From Thalassospira lucentensis (GTDB lineage Bacteria; Pseudomonadota; Alphaproteobacteria; Rhodospirillales; Thalassospiraceae): a DNA stretch of 64,000 nucleotides. Each line of letters begins with the position of its first letter. Within the stretch, counting starts at the first letter, position 1. A program made the translations under genes and the position numbers. The stretch is taken from contig NZ_JAATOV010000003.1 in the NCBI RefSeq assembly GCF_011806425.1, positions 372,001 to 436,000 of the forward strand. Direction: 5' to 3'. A model generated the notes under the pieces. That model was not told where the DNA came from. It ran no database searches and worked only from the letters and a program-made list of their open reading frames with translations. Shown here piece by piece: positions 50,164 through 64,000 of the stretch.

Positions 50164-51510
50164 GTGAGTACGGTCAAGCCCGTTCATATTATTGGTGCCG
50201 GTCTGGCCGGCAGTGAAGCCGCCTGGCAACTGGCCGAGGCAGGCGTTCCGGTGGTCATGCATGAAATGCGCCCGGTCCGCCCAACCGACGCCCACCATAC
50301 GGATAAATGCGCAGAGCTGGTCTGCTCGAACTCGTTCCGTTCCGATGACAAGGAATACAACGCGGTTGGCCTGATTCATGATGAAATGCGCCGCGCTGGA
50401 TCGATCATCATGCGCTGTGCGGATGCGCATAAGGTTCCAGCCGGTGGCGCGCTTGCGGTTGACCGCGAAGGCTTTTCTGCCGCCGTCACCGAAGCCCTTG
50501 AAAACCACCCATTGATCAGCCTGGAACGCGGTGAAATCGATGGCCTACCGCCCCAGGAATGGGAACAGACCATCATTGCAACCGGACCGCTGACCTCTGG
50601 CCCGCTGGCCGAGGCCATCCGATCAGCAACTGGCGAAGAAAGCCTTGCCTTCTTTGATGCGATTGCACCGATTGTCTACAAAGAAAGCATTGATTTCGAC
50701 AAGGCATGGTTCCAATCGCGCTATGACAAGGGTGACGGTAAGGATTACATCAACTGCCCGATGAACGAGGCGCAGTACAACACTTTCATCGACGCCCTGA
50801 TTGAAGGCGAAAAAACCGAATTCAAAGAATGGGAAAAAGACACCCCCTACTTTGATGGATGCCTTCCGATTGAAGTCATGGCCGAGCGTGGCCGTGAAAC
50901 CCTTCGTCATGGGCCGATGAAACCAGTTGGCCTGACCAACCCGCATGATCCCACCAATAAGCCCCGCGCCATTGTTCAGCTGCGCCAGGACAACGCCCTT
51001 GGTACGCTTTACAACATGGTTGGCTTCCAGACCAAATTGAAATACGGCAATCAAGCAGAGGTTTTCCGCACCATTCCGGGCCTTGAAAACGCCGAGTTTG
51101 CCCGCCTTGGCGGCATTCACCGCAATACGTTCTTAAATTCGCCGCGCCTTCTTGATGGCACGTTGCGTCTGAAGTCCCGCCCGGATTTGCGGTTTGCGGG
51201 CCAAATTACCGGCTGCGAAGGGTATGTGGAAAGTGCGGCTGTCGGCCTGATGGTCGGGCGCTTTACCGCTGCTGAAAAGAACGGGAAAACGGTCCCGACC
51301 CCGCCGCTCGCAACTGCTATGGGGGCGTTGCTCAATCACATCACGGGTGGTGCCGATGAAAGCACGTTCCAGCCAATGAACGTTAACTTCGGCCTGTTCC
51401 CGGATCTTGAACTGACCAAACGAGTCAAGGGACGCGATCGCAAGAAACTCTATACAGATCGGGCGATCCCACTATTTGATGAATGGCTATCAAGCCTTTC
51501 CGCTGCCTGA
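50164..51510 (+). CDS. trmFO: Methylenetetrahydrofolate-tRNA (uracil-5-)-methyltransferase
   Basis: FAD- and folate-dependent enzyme that makes 5-methyluridine at position 54 of tRNAs. The 448-residue protein has the FAD motif [20 protein letters not shown], followed by MHEMRP and the conserved [19 protein letters not shown] region. [13 protein letters not shown] near the C terminus is also typical. It starts with GTG; GAGGAG lies about 10 bases upstream. TrmFO replaces SAM-dependent TrmA in many alphaproteobacteria. Confidence 0.95.
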
Positions 51511-51569: not shown

Positions 51570-52142
51570 TCAGTAACCTTTTTTCTTCTGACGCAGCAGC
51601 TTTCCGGTCACATCACGTACCGGTTTCCCATTGCGGAAGCGCTTAAAGACCAGCTCCATATTGCCATCATCATCAAGGGTGCGTTCATAAACCTGCATCT
51701 CATAGCCACCGTCATCGGTGATATAAAGCGCATGGATTGTCAGTGTCTTACCGACAATACGGGCCCAAAAGAACGGCTCACCCTTTAACGGATCATTTGG
51801 GACACGTTTACCGAACAAACCGGTCTGCATAGCACTGCCATAAATGTCTGGGCGATCCGTGCCGTAAAACTCGATGCTCAGTGAAACAGTCTTGTCCCGA
51901 CCATCAGATTTGTGAATGACGGTCGCCCAATCGACAACAAATCCACGTTCGGACTTTTTGATTTGGACATCCAGATCACGTGCGCCTAACTCACCTTCGG
52001 CGTGCTCAATCGAAGCACCATGATAGTCGCCCAAAAATGGATCAATGCTTGCTGCATGTCCCGCAACCGGCAAGATAAGCCAGCTCATCATAAACAAGCC
52101 AACAAACCACTGATATCTTTTGACGATATTCGTATGTGCCAT
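51570..52142 (-). CDS. Secreted protein of unknown function
   Basis: A 190-residue protein with a clear signal peptide (VGLFMMSWLILPVAGHAAS, cleavage near residue 31). The mature part begins IDPFLGDYHGASIE and has alternating beta-strand patterns (DLDVQIKKSERGFVVDWATVI, LTIHALYITDDGGYEMQVYERTL in parts), suggesting a small beta-barrel periplasmic protein. I do not recognise the family. The end is very basic (RQKKKGY). GAGGAA precedes the ATG. It is alone on its strand. Confidence 0.75.
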   Translation of the reverse strand: MAHTNIVKRYQWFVGLFMMSWLILPVAGHAASIDPFLGDYHGASIEHAEGELGARDLDVQIKKSERGFVVDWATVIHKSDGRDKTVSLSIEFYGTDRPDIYGSAMQTGLFGKRVPNDPLKGEPFFWARIVGKTLTIHALYITDDGGYEMQVYERTLDDDGNMELVFKRFRNGKPVRDVTGKLLRQKKKGY

Positions 52143-52290: not shown

Positions 52291-53145
52291 TCAATAACGC
52301 TTTAACATTCCATTCAAAGTCAGACGTAAACTAGCCGGGCGCGCCAAACCAAACTCCGCCGAAAATGGATCATATCCTGCTTTTTTAAGCTTTCGAAGAT
52401 AACCATCAGCCAAAACGACCTGCAATCCGACAGCATGCGCCTTTTGGGGCAATGCTTTGCGAACTGACCGCGCATCCTTGATCCGTTGGCGCGCCAAATC
52501 GGCCAAACCATGGATAAGGGTTTTGACCTCATCCTTTTTACGAAATTCAAAAATGTCGCTTTGGCTAACATTGCAGTGTTCCATCTGATCCTTGGGCAGA
52601 TACAGACGCTTTGCACGTCCATGAAACACAATCGCGCGCAAAATCCCGACAAGCCCATAGGCATTACCAGCAAGCCGCGCAGCATGTTCTGCGTCTTCGC
52701 CCTCTGCACCGAGCAAGCGGGCAGCAAGAACTGCCAGATGTCCAGACGTTTGATCGATATAGGTATCCAGTTCGGCCTGATTATCCGGCTGGCGATCTTC
52801 AAGGTCGAACTCGCGTGCAGACACCAGTTTATCCAACTCTTCAACCATCAAGTCACCGGACTTCACCAGTTCAGCCAATGGTTCGATCACTTCGTGTTTG
52901 CGTACTGTCCCCTCACCCAGATCGGTCAAGGCATCATGCCACCACTGCACGCGAATATGGCCCAGCATCACTTCGCTGACCATTTCGCGGGTTTTCGACA
53001 CTTCCTGATTAAACGCATAAAGCGTGAAAAGGTCATCGCGCCGCTCTGGACGGGCAAAAAGCGCACACAAGAAACGATCACGGTCATGACGACGCACATA
53101 GTCTGCGCAATATGGCAGTTTGGGGGTATCAGTCATTTTACTCAT
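52291..53145 (-). CDS. Squalene/phytoene synthase-fold protein, NDUFAF6-like
   Basis: A 284-residue protein with the trans-isoprenyl diphosphate synthase fold, but the aspartate-rich motifs are lost: the first appears as AFNQEVSKTREMVSE. This pattern, with IRVQWWHDAL and GNAYGLVGILRAI, resembles mitochondrial complex I assembly factor NDUFAF6 and its alphaproteobacterial homologues rather than an active squalene synthase. It overlaps the MscS gene by four bases (ATGA). I infer a role in respiratory complex assembly; enzyme activity is unlikely but not excluded. Confidence 0.8.
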   Translation of the reverse strand: MSKMTDTPKLPYCADYVRRHDRDRFLCALFARPERRDDLFTLYAFNQEVSKTREMVSEVMLGHIRVQWWHDALTDLGEGTVRKHEVIEPLAELVKSGDLMVEELDKLVSAREFDLEDRQPDNQAELDTYIDQTSGHLAVLAARLLGAEGEDAEHAARLAGNAYGLVGILRAIVFHGRAKRLYLPKDQMEHCNVSQSDIFEFRKKDEVKTLIHGLADLARQRIKDARSVRKALPQKAHAVGLQVVLADGYLRKLKKAGYDPFSAEFGLARPASLRLTLNGMLKRY

Positions 53146-54344
53146 CCGATCTTACGCTGTTCGCGCTGATCGTCATTGTCTTTCGAAGATTTTTCTTGTG
53201 ACGGCTGCTCTTTGGCAAAGTTTTCCGGCATGGATTCGACATAAAGCGACTGCGACGGGAAGGCAAAACCGGCTTCTTCTTCTTCGACAATGCGCTTGAA
53301 TGCGATGATATGGCGGTTACGAATGTCGCGCCATTTAACCCAGTCGGTCGTGGTCGTGAAATAGTACAGATCGATATTGATCGAACTGGCCCCAAAATCA
53401 GACAGATGCACCATCTGCGCAACATCGGTCTGCGCAACGTCCTCGTCATTTTTCAGGAAATCACGCAGTTGATCGACAATGGCTTCCATCTGTTTTGCTG
53501 TGGTTCGATATTCCAGCCCCAGCACCATCTTGATACGGCGATGGGTCATACGCGACCAGTTGATCACAGGTGAATCAACAATCTGGGCATTGGGCATGGT
53601 CACCAGCGCCTTGGAAAAGGTGCGTACCTTGGTTGCGCGCAATCCAACAACCTCGACGGTTCCCTCAAAATGCGGGGTTTCGACCCAGTCACCGCGTTTA
53701 TACAGGTTATCCGCAAAAATCGTCAGGCCACCGAAAATGTTGGCGACAGAATCCTTTGCTGCCAGCGCAACAGCCATACCGGCAAGACCAAGACCACCAA
53801 GAAAGGCCGAAACATCAATGCCCCATCCTTCAAGCAGAATGACGATGCCGATCACAACAATCAGCGTTTTAACACCACGGATAAAGAACTGCCGCAGGTC
53901 ATCACCCAATCCGGCACCAAACCGGCCAATCAGGCGGTTAAACGACACGCCAATCGGCTCGACCGCCCGAAACATCGCCCAAAAGACGCTAAACCCGGCA
54001 AGAATGCTGAGAACCTCAAACAAGGTTGATGTGATAGCCTCTGGCAGCTTCAAAAGCTCAATCGCGAAATAAACACCAACAAGCATCACAAGCACTTGCA
54101 ACGGCAAGGCAAACGCATCCAAAACGTTTGCCACCATGCTTTGCTTATTCTGATGTGCCAGGCGACGCAAACCGACAAGAACACCCGCGGCCAATACCCG
54201 TTTAAGAATAAAAAACACCACCAGAACAACAAGTGCACCGATCCAACGACTGGCACTACCGCCGCCAATCATATCGAGCCAACCGTTCATGTGGGAGATA
54301 ACCTCGGTATTTAGGCTATCGATTTCTGTCGAAATTTCATCCAT
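53142..54344 (-). CDS. MscS family mechanosensitive ion channel
   Basis: A 400-residue inner-membrane channel of small-conductance type that releases solutes upon hypo-osmotic shock. Three to five N-terminal helices (about 30-200) lead to the pore-lining TM3 with LGGLGLAGMAVALAAKDSVANIFGGL in pieces, then the beta domain RGDWVETPHFEGTVEVVGLRATKVRTFSKALVTMPN (segments), and a cytoplasmic C-terminal cage. A charged tail (QEKSSKDNDDQREQRK) ends it. The stop overlaps the NDUFAF6-like start. Confidence 0.9.
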   Translation of the reverse strand: MDEISTEIDSLNTEVISHMNGWLDMIGGGSASRWIGALVVLVVFFILKRVLAAGVLVGLRRLAHQNKQSMVANVLDAFALPLQVLVMLVGVYFAIELLKLPEAITSTLFEVLSILAGFSVFWAMFRAVEPIGVSFNRLIGRFGAGLGDDLRQFFIRGVKTLIVVIGIVILLEGWGIDVSAFLGGLGLAGMAVALAAKDSVANIFGGLTIFADNLYKRGDWVETPHFEGTVEVVGLRATKVRTFSKALVTMPNAQIVDSPVINWSRMTHRRIKMVLGLEYRTTAKQMEAIVDQLRDFLKNDEDVAQTDVAQMVHLSDFGASSINIDLYYFTTTTDWVKWRDIRNRHIIAFKRIVEEEEAGFAFPSQSLYVESMPENFAKEQPSQEKSSKDNDDQREQRKIG

Positions 54345-54455
54345 GACTTATAAAGCGTTCTGCTGTTAGTGTTTAATGACTTTCGGACCTTGTTCGCAAA
54401 TCCAGCCGTAAGACCCAATATGACCCTTGTATAACAATTAAAATGGCATAGGCAT

Positions 54456-55823
54456 ATGGCATCATTAACATCGGGACGACTACATGTGATTGGAGGCGGC
54501 TTGGCTGGGTCCTCTCTTGCGACACTGATGGCCGAAGACGGCATTGACGTCACCCTTTATGATGCTGGTGAACCCTTTGAAAGCCGCTGGACACGGGGCA
54601 TGCAAACCGCCCCGAATAGCCACAAGGTTGCCGAGCCTGAAATATTTTACGATCCCGAAGAACTGGTCTCGGACTTCTTTTCACAATTCCCGGAAATCCC
54701 AGACAAGCTTGTTCGCCCTGCGCATGGTGTTCTTGCACTCAAACGCGGGCGGCGCAAACCGGCAATTGTCGAGCTGAATAGCGGTCTGGCCCATGCATTG
54801 ATCAAAAGACGCCCCGGCCTCGTACTGCAGGCCGTTACGGCCTTTGGCCTTTGGCAGAAACGCTTTGCGGGTGAAGACAGTCGCGTTGACATTCCAAAAG
54901 GAATGGGACGCGCAAACGAAGCCGACAATGATGACGAAAATTGGAAAAAAGGCACATACCATCGTGATGGTTTGGCCGTTTTGGCCGAAATCCTATTTTC
55001 AATGCCCGCTCAGAAATGTTCGAACGCGCTGTTTGGTCGGATTTTGGCACCGTCCATAAAGGCGTTGTTTTCACGAAACCCCGCACCTGTCTTTTCGGCG
55101 ATTGATCCGATCATCCTAAATGACATCGCGCTTCCGGCGTTGCGCGAACGCTTTCTGGCATCTGGTGGACGCGTAATGGCCCATGCGCCGCTGGGCGATA
55201 TCGACAGCACATCGGAATATGCGACCGATTTGCTCTTTGGCGAAGACACCCAAATTGTCGTAAATCCACAGGACGCGGTCGTGTTGGCCCTTCATCCAAA
55301 ACAGTTGTGTGATGCAGTGCCTGATATCGGGTTTGCGCCGGCCCCTGCCCGGCGCCAAACAATGGTCTTTGAAGTACGTCGCCAATTTGCAGAACCGCGC
55401 GGTCTGTTCACATCCGATGATCTTGTGCGGGCGATTTATTGCAACCGACGCCACATCCAGGTGAACTTAAACAGCAACGCGCATTTATCGCCCGATGCCA
55501 CGCCAGAACAGCGCGCGCAGCGAATTTGGCAACGGTGCGTTTGGCTGTGTGATCAGTATCTGAACATTGATTTAACCGCGCGGGCGGAAAATGCCGATGG
55601 GATTGGATGCCCAAACTTCAGCTTCGTGGACGCCGAAGCACCATTTCCCGAACTCACCCCAGGCGTGGCGGCCTTACGCCACCGTTTCAAGCCACCTTGG
55701 AAGAACCTGTTCTTATGCGGTGATTCTTTCCCAGCCGATTACGCACCGGGCCCAGCCGCCCTGTTTGAAAGCGTTAATCAGCTCCATGATGAGCTTCATA
55801 CATTTTTCGCAAAGCCAGCTTAA
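54456..55823 (+). CDS. FAD-dependent oxidoreductase (amine oxidase/phytoene desaturase-like)
   Basis: A 455-residue protein beginning with a Rossmann FAD motif (LHVIGGGLAGSSLATLMAEDGIDVTLYD) and ending with NLFLCGDSFPADYAPGPAALFESV, the usual second FAD contact. This places it near HpnE and other amine-oxidase-like flavoproteins, but the middle is divergent and no substrate motif is recognised. It is divergent from the MscS gene and convergent with the Mth938-like gene, only 34 bases away. A link to isoprenoids through the neighbouring synthase-fold protein is possible but unproven. Confidence 0.75.
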   Translation: MASLTSGRLHVIGGGLAGSSLATLMAEDGIDVTLYDAGEPFESRWTRGMQTAPNSHKVAEPEIFYDPEELVSDFFSQFPEIPDKLVRPAHGVLALKRGRRKPAIVELNSGLAHALIKRRPGLVLQAVTAFGLWQKRFAGEDSRVDIPKGMGRANEADNDDENWKKGTYHRDGLAVLAEILFSMPAQKCSNALFGRILAPSIKALFSRNPAPVFSAIDPIILNDIALPALRERFLASGGRVMAHAPLGDIDSTSEYATDLLFGEDTQIVVNPQDAVVLALHPKQLCDAVPDIGFAPAPARRQTMVFEVRRQFAEPRGLFTSDDLVRAIYCNRRHIQVNLNSNAHLSPDATPEQRAQRIWQRCVWLCDQYLNIDLTARAENADGIGCPNFSFVDAEAPFPELTPGVAALRHRFKPPWKNLFLCGDSFPADYAPGPAALFESVNQLHDELHTFFAKPA

Positions 55824-55857
55824 AACTACTGAGGCCGCCTGCATAAAGCCGCGATAC

Positions 55858-56238
55858 TTAAACGGCGATAATCGCCGCGGCGACCCGACGCCCTTCTGAC
55901 AGAAGAACATTATAAGTTCGGCACGCAGCACCGGTATCCATCGGCTCAATCACGATGCCATGTTCTTTTAACGCCTGACGCCATTCCATCGGTACACGGG
56001 TCAATCGGTTACCCATACCAAGCAACAGGATTTCAACCGTTTCTGCGGCTTCTATAATCGGTGCGAATGACTCAACCAGGATGTCATCGGCTGATGACAC
56101 ATTCCACGAATAAACGGCTTCGGGAAACATCAAGATTGATCCGGTGATGGTTTCCTCGCCCAGCCGGAACAAGCCGTCGCCATAGCTGGTCACCATTTTA
56201 CTGCCTTCGGCAACCATCGTACTTACTTCAATAGACAT
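55858..56238 (-). CDS. Mth938 domain protein (DUF498, NDUFAF3-like)
   Basis: A 126-residue protein with the Mth938 fold: SILMFPEAVYSWNVSSADDI, VEILLLGMGNRLTRVP and LKEHGIVIEPMDTGAACRTYNVLLSEGRRVAAAI (in parts). The human homologue NDUFAF3 is a complex I assembly factor. In many alphaproteobacteria it is near yajC-secD-secF and a phytoene-synthase-like gene, as found here. Function in bacteria is not settled. It has its own start with GGGGCC upstream. Confidence 0.88.
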   Translation of the reverse strand: MSIEVSTMVAEGSKMVTSYGDGLFRLGEETITGSILMFPEAVYSWNVSSADDILVESFAPIIEAAETVEILLLGMGNRLTRVPMEWRQALKEHGIVIEPMDTGAACRTYNVLLSEGRRVAAAIIAV

Positions 56239-56295
56239 GTTGGCCCCATTTTGCCGTCGTTCGAATAATGTCCCTTGGACTTAGTCCGCTTTTGA

Positions 56296-57204
56296 TCAAG
56301 TGTCGAGGTGTTCTGTGTTCATTTTTCCGCGCCACAGAATGAACAACCCGGACAAAACAACGATCCCACAGCCAATCATCATCGGAAGATCAGGACGTTC
56401 GCCAAACAGGATCATGCCCAACGCAATCCCAAACAACAGGCGCGTATAGCGAAATGGTGTCACGGCCGATACGTCACCGCTGCGCATTGCCTTCATCAGG
56501 GATGCATAGGCAAACGCCCCCATCAGGATCGCGCCAAGGTAATATAATATGCTGTGCCCATCTGGCCAGATGAATGCTTTGCCGTCCCAAATCGAAAACA
56601 GAATGCCAGCCACAATAATCGCGATAAAGCCGTAAAATCCCAAAATGGCTGTACTCAGCGACAGCGGTGCTGCCCGGCTGGCAAGATCCCGGCCTGCAAA
56701 ACCAATCGTTCCTATGACGGCCAGCAAGGATAAGGCGGAAAAGCTATCAGTGGTCGGACGCAAAATGATCAGAACCCCGATCAAACCAACAATGATCGCA
56801 GCCCACCGGCGCCATCCCACCTTTTCACCAAAAATAACGGCCGCCCCAAGAACGACGATAATCGGTGTCGCCTGCAGGATCGCTGTGGTCGATGATAGCG
56901 GGGTTAAAGCCAGTGCAAGAACGTAAAACAGCCGCCCAATCACTTCAAAAACAACCCGGATGCCCATGGCACGTGACAGGACATCGGGATTAAGCAGACG
57001 TTGTTTTTGAAAACGCGCAATCACCGCAAATAACAGGGCACCGCCAATCCCAAATACAAGAAGCACCTGCCCCACGGCATGGGTTTCAGAAACGGCCTTA
57101 ACAAAGGCATCTTCAAATGAAAACGCCACCATTGCGGCCATCATCCAAAGACTGCCGATCAGATTTGCGCGATGGTTTGGTGCGGAAGCAATAGGAACTG
57201 TCAT
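56296..57204 (-). CDS. EamA/DMT family transporter
   Basis: A 302-residue inner-membrane protein with ten predicted helices in two EamA repeats. The first begins GSLWMMAAMVAFSFEDAFVKA and the second begins about residue 155. Family members export metabolites such as amino acids; the substrate cannot be told. The C terminus is short and charged. It is inserted between the Mth938-like gene and secF and lies downstream of the secF terminator, so it probably has its own promoter. Confidence 0.88.
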   Translation of the reverse strand: MTVPIASAPNHRANLIGSLWMMAAMVAFSFEDAFVKAVSETHAVGQVLLVFGIGGALLFAVIARFQKQRLLNPDVLSRAMGIRVVFEVIGRLFYVLALALTPLSSTTAILQATPIIVVLGAAVIFGEKVGWRRWAAIIVGLIGVLIILRPTTDSFSALSLLAVIGTIGFAGRDLASRAAPLSLSTAILGFYGFIAIIVAGILFSIWDGKAFIWPDGHSILYYLGAILMGAFAYASLMKAMRSGDVSAVTPFRYTRLLFGIALGMILFGERPDLPMMIGCGIVVLSGLFILWRGKMNTEHLDT

Positions 57205-57278
57205 GAGCTGTCGCCAGTTTAAAAAGGACTTTTAACCGGCGTCCAAGGGGCCGCAAACGATCAACGAACCCAAAAGAA

Positions 57279-57312
57279 AAGGCCGGATTTGTTTTCGCAC
57301 AAACCCGGCCTT
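57279..57312 (-). terminator. Terminator of the yajC-secD-secF operon
   Basis: On the minus strand AAGGCCGGGTTTG pairs with CAAATCCGGCCTT, followed by TTCTTTT, about 33 bases after the secF stop. Confidence 0.8.
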
Positions 57313-57344
57313 CCTGTAAATGTCTATCAATTGGGCCTAATGGA

Positions 57345-58277
57345 TCAGGCGCCAGCTTCCTGGGTTTCTTCTTCGCCCTCTGGAATTTTACGCTTAAGGC
57401 GCAAAACAACCAGCAACGGCGAGGCAACGCAAATCGATGAATACGTCCCGACCACGATGCCAAAGATCAGCGCCATGGTGAAGCCACGGATCGCTTCCCC
57501 GCCAAACGCGAACAACGCAATCAAAGCCAACAGCGTGGTAAATGATGTCATTGTCGTACGTGACAGGGTCGAATTGATCGAAAGATCCAACAGATCGGTG
57601 ATTTCCATCTTGCGGAACTTACGCAGATATTCGCGAATGCGGTCAAAGACAACGACCGTATCGTTGATAGAATAACCCGCAACCGTCAAAATAGCCGCCA
57701 AAGTCGCCAGATCGAACTGAACACCGGTAATGACAAAGAAGCCAATCGTGATCAAAACGTCATGCAAAAGTGCAACGACGGATGCCACGGCAAACTGCCA
57801 TTCGAACCGGAACCAGATATAGACCATGATCAGCAAAAGCGAGATCGCAACGGAATAAATCCCTGCTTCCTTAAGCTCATCACCGACTTTCGGCCCAACA
57901 AGTTCGCTTCGACGAATGGTGACATCGTCGCCAAGCGCCTTGGTCACCGCGGCCAAAGCAGCCATCTGGGCTTTTTCGTCACCATCCTGACGCTGCAACT
58001 GGATCAGGACGTCATCGGGTTCACCGAATTCCTGAATAGAAACATCGCCAAGACCAAGACTGCCAAGGTTGTCGCGCAATGCGCCAACATCAGCCGGACC
58101 ATCCGTTTTGATTTCCACAAGAATACCGCCGCGGAAATCAATGCCGAAGTTAAGGCCCTTGGTGAAGAACATGCCAACAGATGCCAGCACCATCACCAAA
58201 GACACAATATAAAAGATCTTCCGGAATTTGAGGAACGGGACGTTCACGTCATCCGGGATAAGATGCAAAGGTTTCAT
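57345..58277 (-). CDS. secF: Protein-export membrane protein SecF
   Basis: Inner-membrane subunit that works with SecD to pull preproteins through SecYEG using the proton gradient. The 310-residue form has the first helix KIFYIVSLVMVLASVGMFF, the FGIDFRGG motif and the C-terminal helix bundle with AGYSINDTVVVFDRIRE. The start at 58277 follows AGGGA and lies 19 bases after the secD stop; the longer open frame would overlap secD. Confidence 0.95.
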   Translation of the reverse strand: MKPLHLIPDDVNVPFLKFRKIFYIVSLVMVLASVGMFFTKGLNFGIDFRGGILVEIKTDGPADVGALRDNLGSLGLGDVSIQEFGEPDDVLIQLQRQDGDEKAQMAALAAVTKALGDDVTIRRSELVGPKVGDELKEAGIYSVAISLLLIMVYIWFRFEWQFAVASVVALLHDVLITIGFFVITGVQFDLATLAAILTVAGYSINDTVVVFDRIREYLRKFRKMEITDLLDLSINSTLSRTTMTSFTTLLALIALFAFGGEAIRGFTMALIFGIVVGTYSSICVASPLLVVLRLKRKIPEGEEETQEAGA

Positions 58278-58296
58278 ATCTTCCCTGTTCCCTTCC

Positions 58297-59871
58297 TCAA
58301 AGTACCAGCTCGGTCGGACGACGGCGTTTAATCCAGCCTGCAATCAGCAGACGGGTCAGCCAAATCGCCGAGAACATGGATGTGACGATACCAATTGCCA
58401 GCGTAACGGCAAAACCCTTGATCGGGCCAGAGCCGAAGCTAAACAGCACCAATGCCGCGATCAGCGTGGTGATATTGGCATCCAAAATGGTCGACATCGC
58501 ACTACGATAACCCGCATCAATCGCGTTGATCACCGTACGCCCGTTGCGCCGTTCTTCGCGAATACGTTCAAAGATCAGCACGTTGGCGTCAACCGCCATA
58601 CCAACCGTAAGAACGATACCTGCGATCCCCGGCAAGGTCAGTGTCGCCTGCAAAACAGACATCACCGCCAAAACAAGGATCAGGTTTAGCATCAGCGCGA
58701 TATCGGCATAAATGCCAAACCGGCCATAGCTGATCACCATAAAGGCGATAACGAAGACAAGACCAAGAACAGCGGCAATTTCGCCGGCCTCAACAGAATC
58801 CTGACCAAGGCCCGGACCAACCGAACGTTCTTCAAGGATTTGCATCGGGGCTGGAAGCGCACCGGCACGCAACAGAAGCGACAGGTCATTTGCTTCCTGT
58901 ACGCTGAACTGTCCGGTGATGATGCCACTGCCGCCCAGGATCGGTTCGTTGATCCGCGGGGCTGAAATAACTTCGCCATCAAGAACGATCGCAAGACTGC
59001 GACCTGCACTTTTGCTTGTCACGTCACCAAAACGTGCACCACCCGCCGCATCAAAGCGGAAGGAAACAACCGGGCGGCCGTCGCTAAAGGTTGGCTGGGA
59101 ATCAACAAGGTTGTCACCCGAAACCACAATACGACGGTCCACCAGATATTCATGAATACCGGCGGCCCGATCACCTTGGTCGGCTGCAGGCAGGATCATG
59201 GTTCCTGGCGGCAAACCGGTTGCACGGGCATCTGAAACAGTTTTCTGGGCATTGACCAAATGGAAGTTCATCTTGGCGGTACGTCCAAGAATCGCACGCA
59301 AGCGCGACGGATCGTCAAGGCCAGGAACCTGAACCACGATACGGTTTGTGCCCTGACGCTGGATTGATGGCTCCGTCGTGCCAAGTTCATCAACACGGCG
59401 ACGGACAACCTCAACCGACTGGCTAAGGGCGCGATCGACCAATTCCTTCATGGCGGTTTCGTTATAGGAAACAATGATATTGTTCCCCTCGCCGCTCATG
59501 ACGGTGTTGGGCTCGATGTTGCGAACCAACTCACGCGCTTTTTCCGCATCTTCAGGATTAAGAACTGTAACTTCTGCACCCTTCATCGTTGCTTCGCGCG
59601 GGCGGTTACGGATCTTTTCTTTGCGCAGTTCGGTGCGAATAGAATCCGCCAACGCTTCGTAACGTTCGCGAACCACGCTATCGGTATCAACTTCCAACAA
59701 CATGTGCGAGCCGCCCCGCAAATCCAGACCAAGATTGATCTGTTTGCTTGGGAGGAAGCTCGATTCTGTCGGAAGAACGTCCTTAGGCAAGAAGTTTGGT
59801 GCGGCGTAAACCACACCCAAAGCACACACGATAAGAACCAGTGCTGCTTTCCATTTTGTAAAATAAAGCAT
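58297..59871 (-). CDS. secD: Protein-export membrane protein SecD
   Basis: A 524-residue partner of SecF with an N-terminal helix (MLYFTKWKAALVLIVCALG), the LGLDLRGGSHMLLEVD motif, a large periplasmic P1 domain (about 60-340) and six C-terminal helices including GMAVDANVLIFERIREE. The ATG at 59871 is followed directly by the membrane helix expected for SecD; ten extra codons upstream look untranslated. A hairpin lies between yajC and this gene. Confidence 0.95.
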   Translation of the reverse strand: MLYFTKWKAALVLIVCALGVVYAAPNFLPKDVLPTESSFLPSKQINLGLDLRGGSHMLLEVDTDSVVRERYEALADSIRTELRKEKIRNRPREATMKGAEVTVLNPEDAEKARELVRNIEPNTVMSGEGNNIIVSYNETAMKELVDRALSQSVEVVRRRVDELGTTEPSIQRQGTNRIVVQVPGLDDPSRLRAILGRTAKMNFHLVNAQKTVSDARATGLPPGTMILPAADQGDRAAGIHEYLVDRRIVVSGDNLVDSQPTFSDGRPVVSFRFDAAGGARFGDVTSKSAGRSLAIVLDGEVISAPRINEPILGGSGIITGQFSVQEANDLSLLLRAGALPAPMQILEERSVGPGLGQDSVEAGEIAAVLGLVFVIAFMVISYGRFGIYADIALMLNLILVLAVMSVLQATLTLPGIAGIVLTVGMAVDANVLIFERIREERRNGRTVINAIDAGYRSAMSTILDANITTLIAALVLFSFGSGPIKGFAVTLAIGIVTSMFSAIWLTRLLIAGWIKRRRPTELVL

Positions 59872-59972
59872 GTGTTCTTTGACCGGATTTGTCTGGATCA
59901 ACCTTGGTCTGGTTCCAAGGTCCTTGGAACAACGGGTATTTTGTACCGCTCAGGCCACCGGTAAAATGCAAG

Positions 59973-59997
59973 AAGGCGGAGCTAAATGCTCCGCCTT
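59973..59997 (-). other. Hairpin between yajC and secD
   Basis: AAGGCGGAGC pairs perfectly with GCTCCGCCTT around a 5-base loop, without a long T-tract. It may reduce read-through from yajC into secDF. Confidence 0.6.
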
Positions 59998-60013
59998 GTG
60001 TTGCTCGAAGAGA

Positions 60014-60394
60014 TTAGTCTTTTTTGGTCTCTTCAGCGTCTTTTTCGTCTTTATCTTCTTTGGCGTCGCTTTTCGCCGGTTCGGTTTTCGACAGAACTGT
60101 CGAAACCATGCCGCGCGCGACTTTGACTTTAACGCCGTCGGCAATCTCAACCGACAGCTCGTCATCACCAATAACTTTTGCAACGGAGCCGATCAAACCA
60201 CCGGCCGTTACGATTTTGTCGCCACGGCGGATCGCGCCGAGCATTGCTTTATGTTCTTTCTGCTTTTTCTGCTGCGGACGAATAAGCAGGAAATAGAAAA
60301 CAACAAAAATCAGGATCAGCGGGGCAAACTGCATCAGTGCGCCTGCACCGTCGGAACCGCCAGCGGCCTGTGCGTAAGCCGTCGAAATGAACAT
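60014..60394 (-). CDS. yajC: Preprotein translocase subunit YajC
   Basis: A 126-residue accessory subunit of the SecDF complex. One membrane helix (about 22-40, APLILIFVVFYFLLIRPQQKKQKEH in parts) is followed by the YajC domain (GDKIVTAGGLIGSVAKV). The C-terminal tail is very rich in Lys, Asp and Glu and longer than in E. coli. AGGAG lies before the ATG. It leads the yajC-secD-secF operon and is divergent from the DUF815 ATPase. Confidence 0.93.
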   Translation of the reverse strand: MFISTAYAQAAGGSDGAGALMQFAPLILIFVVFYFLLIRPQQKKQKEHKAMLGAIRRGDKIVTAGGLIGSVAKVIGDDELSVEIADGVKVKVARGMVSTVLSKTEPAKSDAKEDKDEKDAEETKKD

Positions 60395-60629: not shown

Positions 60630-61493
60630 ATGACCACAGATTTAGATAAATTATTACCAACCTTAGAACGTATCGCGTCCGCACTTGAACGCATGGCCCC
60701 ACCTGCGCGCACCCCAAACGATCTAAGCGCGGCGGATGCCTTCGTGTGGCAGGCCGAAAATAGCTATCTGCAGCCGGTTCGCAATGTGAACCGCATTGAT
60801 ATCGATTTGCTGCAGGGCATCGGCCAACAAAAAGAGATTCTATATAATAACACCAAGAGGTTCACCGATGGTTTGCCTGCGAATAATGCCCTTTTGTGGG
60901 GCGCACGCGGCACGGGTAAAAGCTCCATCGTCAAAGCAATGCACGCCAAGATAAATGCCGAAAGCCCTGGTGCGCTGGCCTTAGTGGAAATTCATCGCGA
61001 AGACATCCCGAGCCTGCCCGATCTTTTGCATATCCTGCAAGAAAGCGGTCGCAAAACCGTCCTGTTCTGTGACGACCTGTCCTTTGATATGCATGATGAA
61101 AGCTATAAGTCGCTAAAGGCCGTGCTTGAAGGCGGTGTCGAAGGACGTCCAAAGAACGTCATTTTCTATGCGACATCAAACCGTCGCCATTTGATGGCAC
61201 GCGACATGATCGAAAATGAACGCTCGACCGCGATCAACCCATCCGAGGCAGTCGAAGAAAAAGTATCACTATCGGACCGTTTTGGCCTGTGGCTTGGCTT
61301 CCACAATATTTCGCAGGATATCTATTTCGAAATCATCGAAGGATATGCCAAGGAATTTGATCTTGATATCCCGACCGAAGAACTTCATGCCCGCGCCAAA
61401 GAATGGACGGTCACACGCGGCAGCCGTTCTGGCCGTGTCGCATGGCAGTTTATTCAGGAAATTGCGGGTGAACGCGGGAAATCAATCGACTGA
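60630..61493 (+). CDS. DUF815 family AAA+ ATPase
   Basis: A 287-residue P-loop protein with Walker A GARGTGKSS (91-99), Walker B TVLFCDDLSFD (about 144-154), a sensor region FYATSNRRHLM and a conserved SLSDRFGLWLGFHNISQDIY segment typical of DUF815. The N-terminal 45 residues form a helix that may mediate oligomer or membrane contact. The cellular role is unknown. GAGG precedes the ATG; the gene is monocistronic with a strong terminator. Confidence 0.88.
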   Translation: MTTDLDKLLPTLERIASALERMAPPARTPNDLSAADAFVWQAENSYLQPVRNVNRIDIDLLQGIGQQKEILYNNTKRFTDGLPANNALLWGARGTGKSSIVKAMHAKINAESPGALALVEIHREDIPSLPDLLHILQESGRKTVLFCDDLSFDMHDESYKSLKAVLEGGVEGRPKNVIFYATSNRRHLMARDMIENERSTAINPSEAVEEKVSLSDRFGLWLGFHNISQDIYFEIIEGYAKEFDLDIPTEELHARAKEWTVTRGSRSGRVAWQFIQEIAGERGKSID

Positions 61494-61530: not shown

Positions 61531-61565
61531 AAAAAACACCCGGCTTAGCCCCGGGTGTTTTTTTA
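61531..61565. terminator. Bidirectional terminator between DUF815 and LysM-M23 genes
   Basis: AAAAAACACCCGG pairs with CCGGGTGTTTTTTT around CTTAGCC, with A- and T-tracts on both sides. Its right end runs into the last codons of the converging gene. Confidence 0.88.
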
Positions 61566-62651
61566 TCGCGATACCATCACACGTGGCAAAAGCTTCATCG
61601 GGTCCGAAGATTTACGTCCGCGCCGAATTTCGAAATGCAATTGCGGGAACGTCACCGCCCCGGTTGATCCGACACTTGAAATACGCTGGCCGCGCTTGAC
61701 CACATCACCGCGTGCAACCAGTGGGTTTTCGGTATGGGCGTATGCCGTCACATAATTATCGGCATGCTTGATCAGGATAAGGTTGCCAAAGCCGCGCAAT
61801 TCATTGCCGACATAGGTTACAACACCATTTTCCGCCGCCGTGATCGGCGTGCCGCGGTCAGCCTGAATGTTGATCCCGTCATTAAACAATCCACCAGCAC
61901 CCGCACCATATTTCAGGACAACTTTGCCCTGAACGGGCCAAACAAAGCCCTTGCGTCCGGTCGGTTCGGCCAGAACGACTTCTTTACGAACGTGGCTGCC
62001 CTGCCCGGCGGCGGGTGTATGTTTGCGATCGGTCTTCCAGCTTTGCGTGCTGGCAATCTGTTTTTCAGCCGCCGCTGCGTATTCTTGTGGCTTGATCCCG
62101 GGTGTTGGAATGTTGCCGCCATCGGTTGGTTCAACGCGGGTTGCGACCGTCGTTGGACGCGCTGGCGTGCTCGGCGCGGAACGTTGCTTGGTCGGCACAC
62201 TGACCGTCTGGCGTTTGCCACCAATCGTCACACTTTTGGTTCTGGTGCTTGATGCAGTACGGGTCGTTGATTTGGACGTAGGTTTAGACGATGCCACCGC
62301 AGTGGATGGTGGTGCACTGTCATAATCGGCCTGCCAAGGCGGCAAGACCAACCGTTGACCAGGATAAATGATATAAGGCGCGCGCAGGTCGTTTCGGCTT
62401 GTGAACCGCTGAAAATCGGCACTATAGCGTGCGGTCAACTGCGAAACAGTGTCGCCAGGTTCAACCGTGATAACGCGTTCGCCATTCTTGAGTTTCGGCA
62501 TGCTGTACGGGCTATAACTTGCGCCATCGCCATACACCACCGGTACCGGGGTAGAATTTAGCAAACAGCCGCTTAGCGCCGCCGTTGTCATGCAGACAAG
62601 CAGCAGGTTTCTTCCACGTTGAAAAGCCTGTGTGACACAATTTTCCATCAT
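61563..62651 (-). CDS. nlpD: LysM-M23 lipoprotein (NlpD-like, degenerate LytM domain)
   Basis: A 362-residue outer-membrane lipoprotein with lipobox ALSGC (cysteine near 29). A LysM peptidoglycan-binding domain spans about 57-105, followed by a long Ser/Thr/Arg-rich linker and a C-terminal M23/LytM domain (about 240-355). Two zinc-binding motifs are altered: the usual HxxxD appears as NDGIN and the HxH as QLH. As with E. coli NlpD and EnvC, it should activate an amidase rather than cut peptidoglycan itself. It lies next to pcm and surE, as nlpD does in many Proteobacteria. Confidence 0.9.
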   Translation of the reverse strand: MMENCVTQAFQRGRNLLLVCMTTAALSGCLLNSTPVPVVYGDGASYSPYSMPKLKNGERVITVEPGDTVSQLTARYSADFQRFTSRNDLRAPYIIYPGQRLVLPPWQADYDSAPPSTAVASSKPTSKSTTRTASSTRTKSVTIGGKRQTVSVPTKQRSAPSTPARPTTVATRVEPTDGGNIPTPGIKPQEYAAAAEKQIASTQSWKTDRKHTPAAGQGSHVRKEVVLAEPTGRKGFVWPVQGKVVLKYGAGAGGLFNDGINIQADRGTPITAAENGVVTYVGNELRGFGNLILIKHADNYVTAYAHTENPLVARGDVVKRGQRISSVGSTGAVTFPQLHFEIRRGRKSSDPMKLLPRVMVSR

Positions 62652-62761: not shown

Positions 62762-63415
62762 CTAGAATTCTTCGGTGCCCGGCAGCATTGGCACAAACCG
62801 CACCGGCATCAATTCGGTGACTTCGACGCCACTTGGCGTTCTCAGCACGCGCAACAACAGCTGCGTATGCGACACCTCGCCCACTGGCACGACCATAATC
62901 CCCCCAACGGCAAGCTGATCGACAAGAACCGGCGGAACGTCTTGGGCGGCGGCGGTCACAATGATCCGATCAAACGGTGCCTGTGCTTTCCAGCCAAGCC
63001 CACCATCCCCGTGCAGGGTTGAAATGGTATGCAGGCCAAGCTGACGGAATTTATCTTCGGCCTCACGCAGCAGCGGTTTATGCCGTTCTAGCGTATAAAC
63101 ACGGCGGGCAAGCTTTGCCAAAATGGCCGCCTGATAGCCAGACCCAGTACCGACCTCTAAGACCTTCATGCGGTCATTCAGCTCAAGCGCCTGCGTCATT
63201 AACGCAACGATATAGGGCTGTGAAATTGTTTGTCCCTTGCTGATCGGCAAGGCGACGTTTTCCCACGCACGGGACATAAACGGTTCAGCGACGAATATTT
63301 CGCGGGGAATATCGGCCAGCGCGCGCAACACGGTCTCGTCATGAATGCCATCATCACGAAGAACGTCAAGCAGGTTGGCTATTTTTGTTTCACGCGTAAT
63401 GACCGGCTCGTTCAC
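62762..63415 (-). CDS. pcm: Protein-L-isoaspartate O-methyltransferase
   Basis: Repairs isoaspartyl residues in damaged proteins with S-adenosylmethionine. The 217-residue protein has GQTISQPYIVALMTQAL and the SAM motif VLEVGTGSGYQAAIL, followed by VYTLER. It probably starts with GTG at 63415, which overlaps the surE stop codon as GTGA. surE-pcm-nlpD is a widely conserved order linked with stationary-phase survival. Confidence 0.94.
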   Translation of the reverse strand: MNEPVITRETKIANLLDVLRDDGIHDETVLRALADIPREIFVAEPFMSRAWENVALPISKGQTISQPYIVALMTQALELNDRMKVLEVGTGSGYQAAILAKLARRVYTLERHKPLLREAEDKFRQLGLHTISTLHGDGGLGWKAQAPFDRIIVTAAAQDVPPVLVDQLAVGGIMVVPVGEVSHTQLLLRVLRTPSGVEVTELMPVRFVPMLPGTEEF

Positions 63416-64000
63416 GTAAATGCTTTCGTCAGTTTTTCGTGCGTTTCGTAATGGGTAAAATCAAGACTGATCGGCGTTACCGAAATATCGCCTTGTTCGA
63501 TTACCCGCAAGTCTGCATTTGGGTCTTCGGGCAAATCAGACAGAATTGCTCCAATCCAATAATACGGCTCACCGCGCGGATCATGGCGTTCGGCGATGTG
63601 ATCGCCAATTTGACGCTGACCTTGCGTTGAGACGCGGACACGCGCCCCACCCTGTGCTTCTTGTTCCGGAAAGTTCACATTGATCAAAACACCCTTTGGC
63701 CAAGTTGCCTCAACCAAGGACTTGGTCACGTCATTAAGATGTTTTTCCGCCGTGGTCCAATTGATCATTTCACCGGAAAAATACTGCGAAAATGCAATCG
63801 CAGGCACGTTTAGAAGTGTGGCTTCCATCGCCGCGGCGATCGTTCCGGAATAGGTCACGTCTTCACCAAGGTTTCCACCCCGGTTAATCCCCGACAAAAC
63901 AATATCAGGTGGCGTATCACGCATGATCTGCTGCAAGCCCAAAAGAATGCAGTCCGTTGGCGTCCCATCAACCGCATAATGGCGGTCATCGCGTTTATGA
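63412..64000 (-). CDS. surE: 5'-nucleotidase/survival protein SurE, C-terminal part
   Basis: The gene runs off the right edge, so the N terminus with the metal-binding DDG is missing. The visible 195 codons include the sequence before the first internal ATG at 63942 (HYAVDGTPTDCILLG), showing that this ATG is not the start. Typical segments are DIVLSGINRGGNLGEDVTYSGTI and AFSQYF. SurE dephosphorylates nucleotides and survives stress. It is translationally coupled to pcm. Confidence 0.94.
   Translation of the reverse strand, partial: HKRDDRHYAVDGTPTDCILLGLQQIMRDTPPDIVLSGINRGGNLGEDVTYSGTIAAAMEATLLNVPAIAFSQYFSGEMINWTTAEKHLNDVTKSLVEATWPKGVLINVNFPEQEAQGGARVRVSTQGQRQIGDHIAERHDPRGEPYYWIGAILSDLPEDPNADLRVIEQGDISVTPISLDFTHYETHEKLTKAFT

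Follow-up and report, generated by a model that had tools for sequence, protein, structure and literature searches.

The window analysed here, a stretch of 64,000 nucleotides from Thalassospira lucentensis (contig NZ_JAATOV010000003.1, positions 372,001 to 436,000), encodes a protein with the squalene/phytoene synthase (SQS_PSY) fold, here called N6, in the wider neighbourhood of yajC-secD-secF and of a gene of the Mth938 (DUF498) family. N6 is best explained as a bacterial orthologue of the mitochondrial protein NDUFAF6, a factor that helps to assemble mitochondrial-type respiratory complex I or to insert it into the membrane, with Mth938 as an old but dispensable neighbour; we give this reading a probability of roughly two in three. 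It is favoured because of the predicted fold of N6, the loss of its catalytic aspartates, its place beside SecDF-YajC and Mth938, and a presence that is tied to the mitochondrial-type complex. Within one alphaproteobacterial family, 116 genomes have mitochondrial-type complex I, and N6 was called in 110 of them; it was called in none of 22 genomes that have E. coli-type complex I only or lack the complex.

Family, motifs and predicted fold of N6

N6 matches PF00494 with 185 bits. Among NCBIfam models it scores highest with HpnD, yet its 122.6 bits fall far short of the cut-off of 278.6, and N6 was rejected as an HpnD because of this low score and the missing motifs. At the columns of the first aspartate motif the window protein carries S50, K51 and E54, and at those of the second A171, F174 and H175, which bears out the description in the first-pass annotation of an NDUFAF6-like protein without the aspartates of isoprenoid synthases; the two aspartate-rich Mg2+ motifs of HpnC, HpnD and CrtB synthases are both missing. 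In an alignment of 78 N6 rows and 23 synthase-like rows, at least two of the three motif-1 aspartates occurred in 0/78 N6 rows versus 20/23 synthase-like rows. Aspartate stood at columns 50, 51, 54 and 171 in 1, 0, 10 and 1 of the N6 rows, respectively, versus 20, 20, 21 and 21 of the synthase-like rows. The replacements were themselves patterned, with A or S at 50 and D or E at 54 in 62 of the 78 N6 rows, and A or S at 171 and H at 175 in 37; all four positions were replaced in this way in 36 N6 rows versus 0/23 synthase-like rows. Other residues kept in N6 were R65 (77/78) and W69 (78/78). Three CrtB-like rows (L122, L125, L126) displaced the N6 rows of the same loci, which are absent from the 78, and were placed among the synthase-like rows, which include a few odd ones. 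At one further locus (L147), N6 is split into two open reading frames (ORFs), perhaps by decay or an assembly error.

This combination, an SQS_PSY domain with both DxxxD motifs lost, is that of human NDUFAF6 (C8orf38) and of NDU1 from Candida albicans, as described in PMC8007014 and PMC12470011. The replacements in N6 resemble those of the human and Arabidopsis NDUFAF6 proteins, for which PMC12470011 gives AxxxD and AxxxH/SxxxH. The same paper states that the AxxxD/AxxxH pattern is not seen in Drosophila NDUFAF6, which weighs against the preferred reading. N6, a putative orthologue, differs from NDUFAF6 in being bacterial and encoded beside SecDF.

The AlphaFold2 model of N6 has a mean predicted local distance difference test score (pLDDT) of 96. 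The solved structures closest to it are the dehydrosqualene synthases 5IYS (template-modelling (TM) score 0.83) and CrtM, together with HpnC, and a profile search with N6 ranked HpnC and 5IYS at the top. N6 is thus predicted to share the fold of the head-to-head prenyl synthases HpnC, HpnD and CrtM (TM about 0.8), but lacks their catalytic aspartates and scores far under the HpnC and HpnD cut-offs. The PF00494 score and the likeness to CrtM-type enzymes would be expected if N6 were still an active head-to-head prenyl synthase that works through other residues. We regard this as very improbable, given the near-complete loss of the motif-1 aspartates and of Asp171 across the N6 rows, and given that a nematode protein described as NDUFAF6-like is without SQS and PSY activity according to PMC12470011.

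Complex I type and the distribution of N6

If N6 serves complex I, it is expected to be absent where the complex is absent. In a class-wide sample of 192 alphaproteobacterial genomes with a completeness of at least 90%, matches were found to SecF in 192, NuoH in 174, PF00494 in 143 and Mth938 in 108. Neither N6 nor Mth938 was called in any of the 18 genomes of this sample without NuoH, and a NuoH match was present in 108/108 genomes with Mth938. In a size-matched comparison, N6 or Mth938 was found in 9/36 genomes versus 0/18 of the NuoH-less ones (p 0.018). N6 was called in 114/192 genomes, 102 by score and 12 on weaker matches by their place or a second profile, along a narrow score line: the weakest of the 102 scored 135.6 bits and the top presumed synthase 134.3. 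The fused NuoCD model reached its cut-off in 0/192 genomes, so that complex I type could not be distinguished in this sample. Two genomes of another family (G010 and G125, family f12) have NuoH and a separate NuoD without a clear N6, and G010 retains Mth938.

Because the test by NuoH presence was weak and the NuoH-less genomes were all small, we moved to a single family, f23, that of genome G021, from which 140 genomes were drawn. We infer that f23 is Acetobacteraceae, since a Pseudoroseomonas locus and those of G021 and G132 share an unusual order in which YajC lies beside N6 and SecDF is not found there. E. coli-type complex I was called with the fused NuoCD model NF008728, chosen with E. 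coli NuoCD, which was over its cut-off in 21/140 genomes. Twelve of these were without mitochondrial-type NuoH and nine had it as well, so that 9 of the 140 encode a mitochondrial-type complex I in addition to an E. coli-like one with fused NuoCD. A NuoH match was absent in 10/140. Mitochondrial-type genomes were defined by mitochondrial-type NuoH or a separate NuoD; excluding the 12, the 10 and the drafts G215 and G265 left 116. N6 was called with a family-specific profile (A3) at E ≤1e-33, and the next match, at 1.6e-23, lay beyond a gap.

By these calls, N6 was present in 9/9 genomes carrying both types of complex I, and in 0/12 of those with the E. coli type only and 0/10 of those without complex I. 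The difference from the 116 mitochondrial-type genomes gave a Fisher p of 2e-20, uncorrected for relatedness; scoring the two drafts as counter-examples raised it to 4e-18. Counted by genus, N6 was found in 71/75 versus 0/15 (p 8e-14, uncorrected for descent), and among genomes of at most 2.9 Mb in 11/11 with the mitochondrial type versus 0/15 others. As far as gene content can tell, this joint absence of N6 and mitochondrial-type complex I supports a link between the two. The pattern fits the variation described for acetic acid bacteria, which have none, one or two nuo operons, with both transfer and loss inferred (PMC4596401, on Asaia).

Mth938 behaved differently. No match to it was found in 137/140 f23 genomes, with two matches over the cut-off and one weak, and 116/140 keep mitochondrial-type complex I. 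A link of Mth938 to complex I is therefore not supported in this family, where the distribution of the window-type protein, as distinct from NDUFAF3, is not tied to the complex. That both proteins track complex I was rejected, since in f23 Mth938 is missing from genomes that retain both complex I and N6. The first-pass annotation had suggested a possible ancestral alphaproteobacterial unit for membrane-complex biogenesis; a tie between N6 and complex I is supported in f23 and an ancestral gene order by the survey below, and a tie between Mth938 and complex I is not supported in f23.

Several observations weigh against N6 as a factor for mitochondrial-type complex I. In the class sample, all 18 NuoH-less genomes are of 1.8 Mb or less, two of them (G037 and G144) each have two weaker matches to the N6 profile that were assigned to HpnC/HpnD by score alone, and N6 was uncalled in 60 of the 174 NuoH-positive genomes. 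In f23, N6 was missed in six of the 116 (G208, G216, G247, G259, G322 and, ambiguously, G277), the calls in G203 and G223 rest on partial matches, and the drafts G215 and G265 have N6 with weak NuoH (6e-33 and 3e-36) and NuoD (3e-19 and 3e-25). For some f23 genomes, 17 candidates of a larger first-look set were scored, which makes single absences uncertain. Because N6 is uncalled in complex-I-positive genomes of both samples, it is not always needed. Finally, the 22 genomes without N6 span 15 genera and may trace to one or few losses.

If those 22 were one clade, the joint absence could be a coincidence of one lineage, and N6 might act in lipid, quinone or hopanoid metabolism instead. The fold kept in the N6 model, perhaps with its hydrophobic tunnel, would suit such a role, and hpnC/hpnD-like genes share the gap between secF and N6 in several loci. 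We consider this unlikely. The active-site aspartates of N6 are gone, relatives of equal genome size with mitochondrial-type complex I all keep the gene (11/11), and the 22 genomes each retain two matches at the level of HpnC/HpnD by score and none at that of N6.

Under the preferred reading, N6 would have kept the squalene/phytoene-synthase fold, lost the Mg2+-diphosphate chemistry and come to serve the assembly or membrane insertion of the mitochondrial (alphaproteobacterial) complex I. By analogy with human NDUFAF6, which acts on ND1 biogenesis as reported in PMC8007014, N6 probably acts while NuoH (ND1) is inserted into the membrane or stabilised. N6 may also contact Sec, and Mth938 may help the same pathway in many lineages while being dispensable. 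A broader proposal, which we hold tentatively and at somewhat less than even odds, is that NDUFAF6-type proteins are dedicated to mitochondrial-type complex I, being lost when it is swapped for the E. coli type or when complex I is lost and kept where both types occur; in that case mitochondria would be younger than this specificity and than a role of the protein in handling NuoH where SecDF-YajC inserts it, and Mth938 would be a partner that some lineages do without. In humans, NDUFAF3 and NDUFAF6 are disease genes whose mechanism is unclear. If N6 serves alphaproteobacterial complex I, its function becomes accessible in tractable bacteria such as Paracoccus and Caulobacter, and lineages with E. 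coli-type complex I alone would provide ready-made negative controls.

Gene order around Mth938 and SecDF-YajC across Alphaproteobacteria

Neighbourhoods of up to 20 kb around Mth938 were compared in 107 genomes of the class sample besides that of the window; two second Mth938 copies (L161 and L168, left out of the 107) and 11 SecF loci without Mth938 brought the set to 120 loci. The prevailing order was NlpD, DUF815 (on the opposite strand), YajC, SecD, SecF, Mth938, N6 and TrmFO (opposite strand), where NlpD and TrmFO are family names that we presume from the corresponding window genes. SecD and SecF lay on the same strand as Mth938 in 104/107 loci. N6 was found in 74 of the 107, in 71 of these 74 downstream and on the same strand. 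Counting the window's own genome, 96 genomes have both genes, and in 75 of them Mth938 and N6 were at most 10 kb apart; in the remaining 21, N6 was elsewhere in the genome or on a different contig. By our estimate, a gene placed at random in a genome of about 4 Mb would land this close about 0.5% of the time, and the clustering of N6 with Mth938 is far beyond chance. The conserved order supports the proposed ancestral Sec-linked unit, and as judged from this survey the association with the Sec genes is genuine and of ancient date. A genome-wide scan seeded on N6 gave a similar picture: among 52 named loci of at least 15 kb, drawn from the best 80 and hence biased toward relatives of the window, Mth938, YajC and SecD/F lay near N6 in 37. 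The alphaproteobacterial cluster, NlpD through TrmFO, also turned up on one contig labelled Anaerolineae (L261), probably because of a binning error.

What maintains this order is a separate matter. It could be an inherited housekeeping arrangement, in which rearrangement near essential genes is slow and no working link with Sec exists, and we hold this to be nearly an even bet. The border genes trmFO, nlpD and DUF815, functionally unrelated as far as known, are conserved as well, and genes for an hpnCD-like synthase, an EamA transporter, an MscS channel and a flavin adenine dinucleotide (FAD)-dependent protein enter the gap between secF and N6. N6 also persists at a distance from Mth938, about 77 kb in G089 and 150 kb in G146. 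On the other side, of the 18 genomes that have N6 without Mth938, 14 still keep N6 next to SecF, SecD or YajC, as a shared constraint predicts, even if inertia could produce this too. Mth938 without N6 was seen in 12 genomes of the class sample. A working link of N6 or Mth938 with SecDF would have the neighbourhood as its sole basis, which in the window is split by inserted genes and a terminator-like hairpin.

The Mth938 protein of the window carries the domain of the NDUFAF3 relatives, as had been claimed for it, and shares PF04430 with NDUFAF3 (C3orf60), which we take to be a member of the Mth938 (DUF498) family. Its nearest solved sequences are 2FVT and 2FI9. The copy of the Protein Data Bank searched held no match to an NDUFAF3 chain, the sole human match in the family being C11orf67. 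At L134, Mth938 is split into two ORFs, perhaps by decay or an assembly error.

The arrangement itself is old and probably already published. Saada et al. 2009 reportedly linked NDUFAF3 to SecF, SecD, YajC and C8ORF38 by analysis of gene conservation. The present survey also covers complex I type, loss of Mth938 and inserted genes. Saada et al. 2009 is cited in PMC3436739 and PMC4992684, and the former reports that the evolutionary rates of NDUFAF3, C8orf38 and C2orf56 are correlated in eukaryotes. Among the literature matches listed, no paper stating the Sec link was found. The pairing of N6 with complex I type in f23 is not claimed as new, the literature search not having been aimed at it.

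The Thalassospira copy

All genes under study were present in the ORF list of the window where the first-pass annotation had placed them (Table 1), and its statement that both assembly-factor homologues lie within 8 kb of yajC-secD-secF is borne out, N6 to yajC spanning 8.1 kb. N6 is nonetheless no immediate neighbour of the Sec genes here, since the genes for the EamA transporter, Mth938, the FAD-dependent protein (on the opposite strand) and the MscS channel lie between secF and N6.

Table 1. Genes of the Sec neighbourhood in the T. lucentensis window (aa, amino acids)
Feature	Position	Strand	Evidence and occurrence
trmFO (presumed family name), usual far border of the unit	50164-51510	+	profile built from this gene: 64/120 loci, as a rule immediately past N6
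190-aa ORF, listed between N6 and trmFO	51570-52142	-	without family match
N6, NDUFAF6-like SQS_PSY-fold protein, 284 aa	52291-53145	-	PF00494; motif 1 SxxxE, motif 2 AxxxH
MscS-family channel	53142-54344	-	PF00924
FAD-dependent protein, weakly HpnE-like N-terminus	54456-55823	+	PF01266 36.6 bits; HpnE 33.7 bits
Mth938/DUF498 protein, NDUFAF3-like, 126 aa	55858-56238	-	PF04430 119 bits
EamA transporter	56296-57204	-	PF00892
secF	57345-58343	-	TIGR00966 336.9 bits
secD	58297-59901	-	TIGR01129 494 bits
yajC	60014-60394	-	TIGR00739 90 bits
DUF815 ATPase, conserved divergent neighbour	60630-61493	+	PF05673 351 bits; in 84/120 loci
NlpD-like (presumed family name) LysM/M23 protein, conserved neighbour	61563-62651	-	translation; in 74/120 loci

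The nearest named relatives of N6 among the best 80 matches listed were Thalassospira loci, with up to 78% identity. The order of the conserved genes was identical in 7/7 named Thalassospira loci, of which 5 have the EamA gene, 6 the MscS gene and 7 the FAD gene. We therefore rejected the window as the ancestral order and treat these three genes as insertions. The gap between secF and N6 reads as a young, lineage-specific patchwork, and the window appears to be a lineage-specific, partly broken-up form of the ancestral order. The stop of the MscS gene and the start of N6 overlap by 4 bases (53142-53145), an arrangement suggesting that N6 is today translated together with MscS and not with the Sec genes.

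The minus strand has two long-stemmed, terminator-like hairpins, one following secF (57314-57277) and the other following yajC (59997-59973). In total, the scan returned 21 sites versus 12.0 expected in shuffled sequence, so that individual sites are weak evidence; the hairpin after secF is in keeping with an inherited order that has no working link to Sec.

The FAD gene occupies the gap in which other alphaproteobacteria have hpnC/hpnD-like genes on the opposite strand (for example L064, L081, L088, L093 and L130). The HpnE match of its product is confined to residues 10-39, so that descent of the protein from HpnE is no more than possible. Upstream of nlpD, at 62762-63942, lie genes that we take from their translations to be pcm-like and surE-like.

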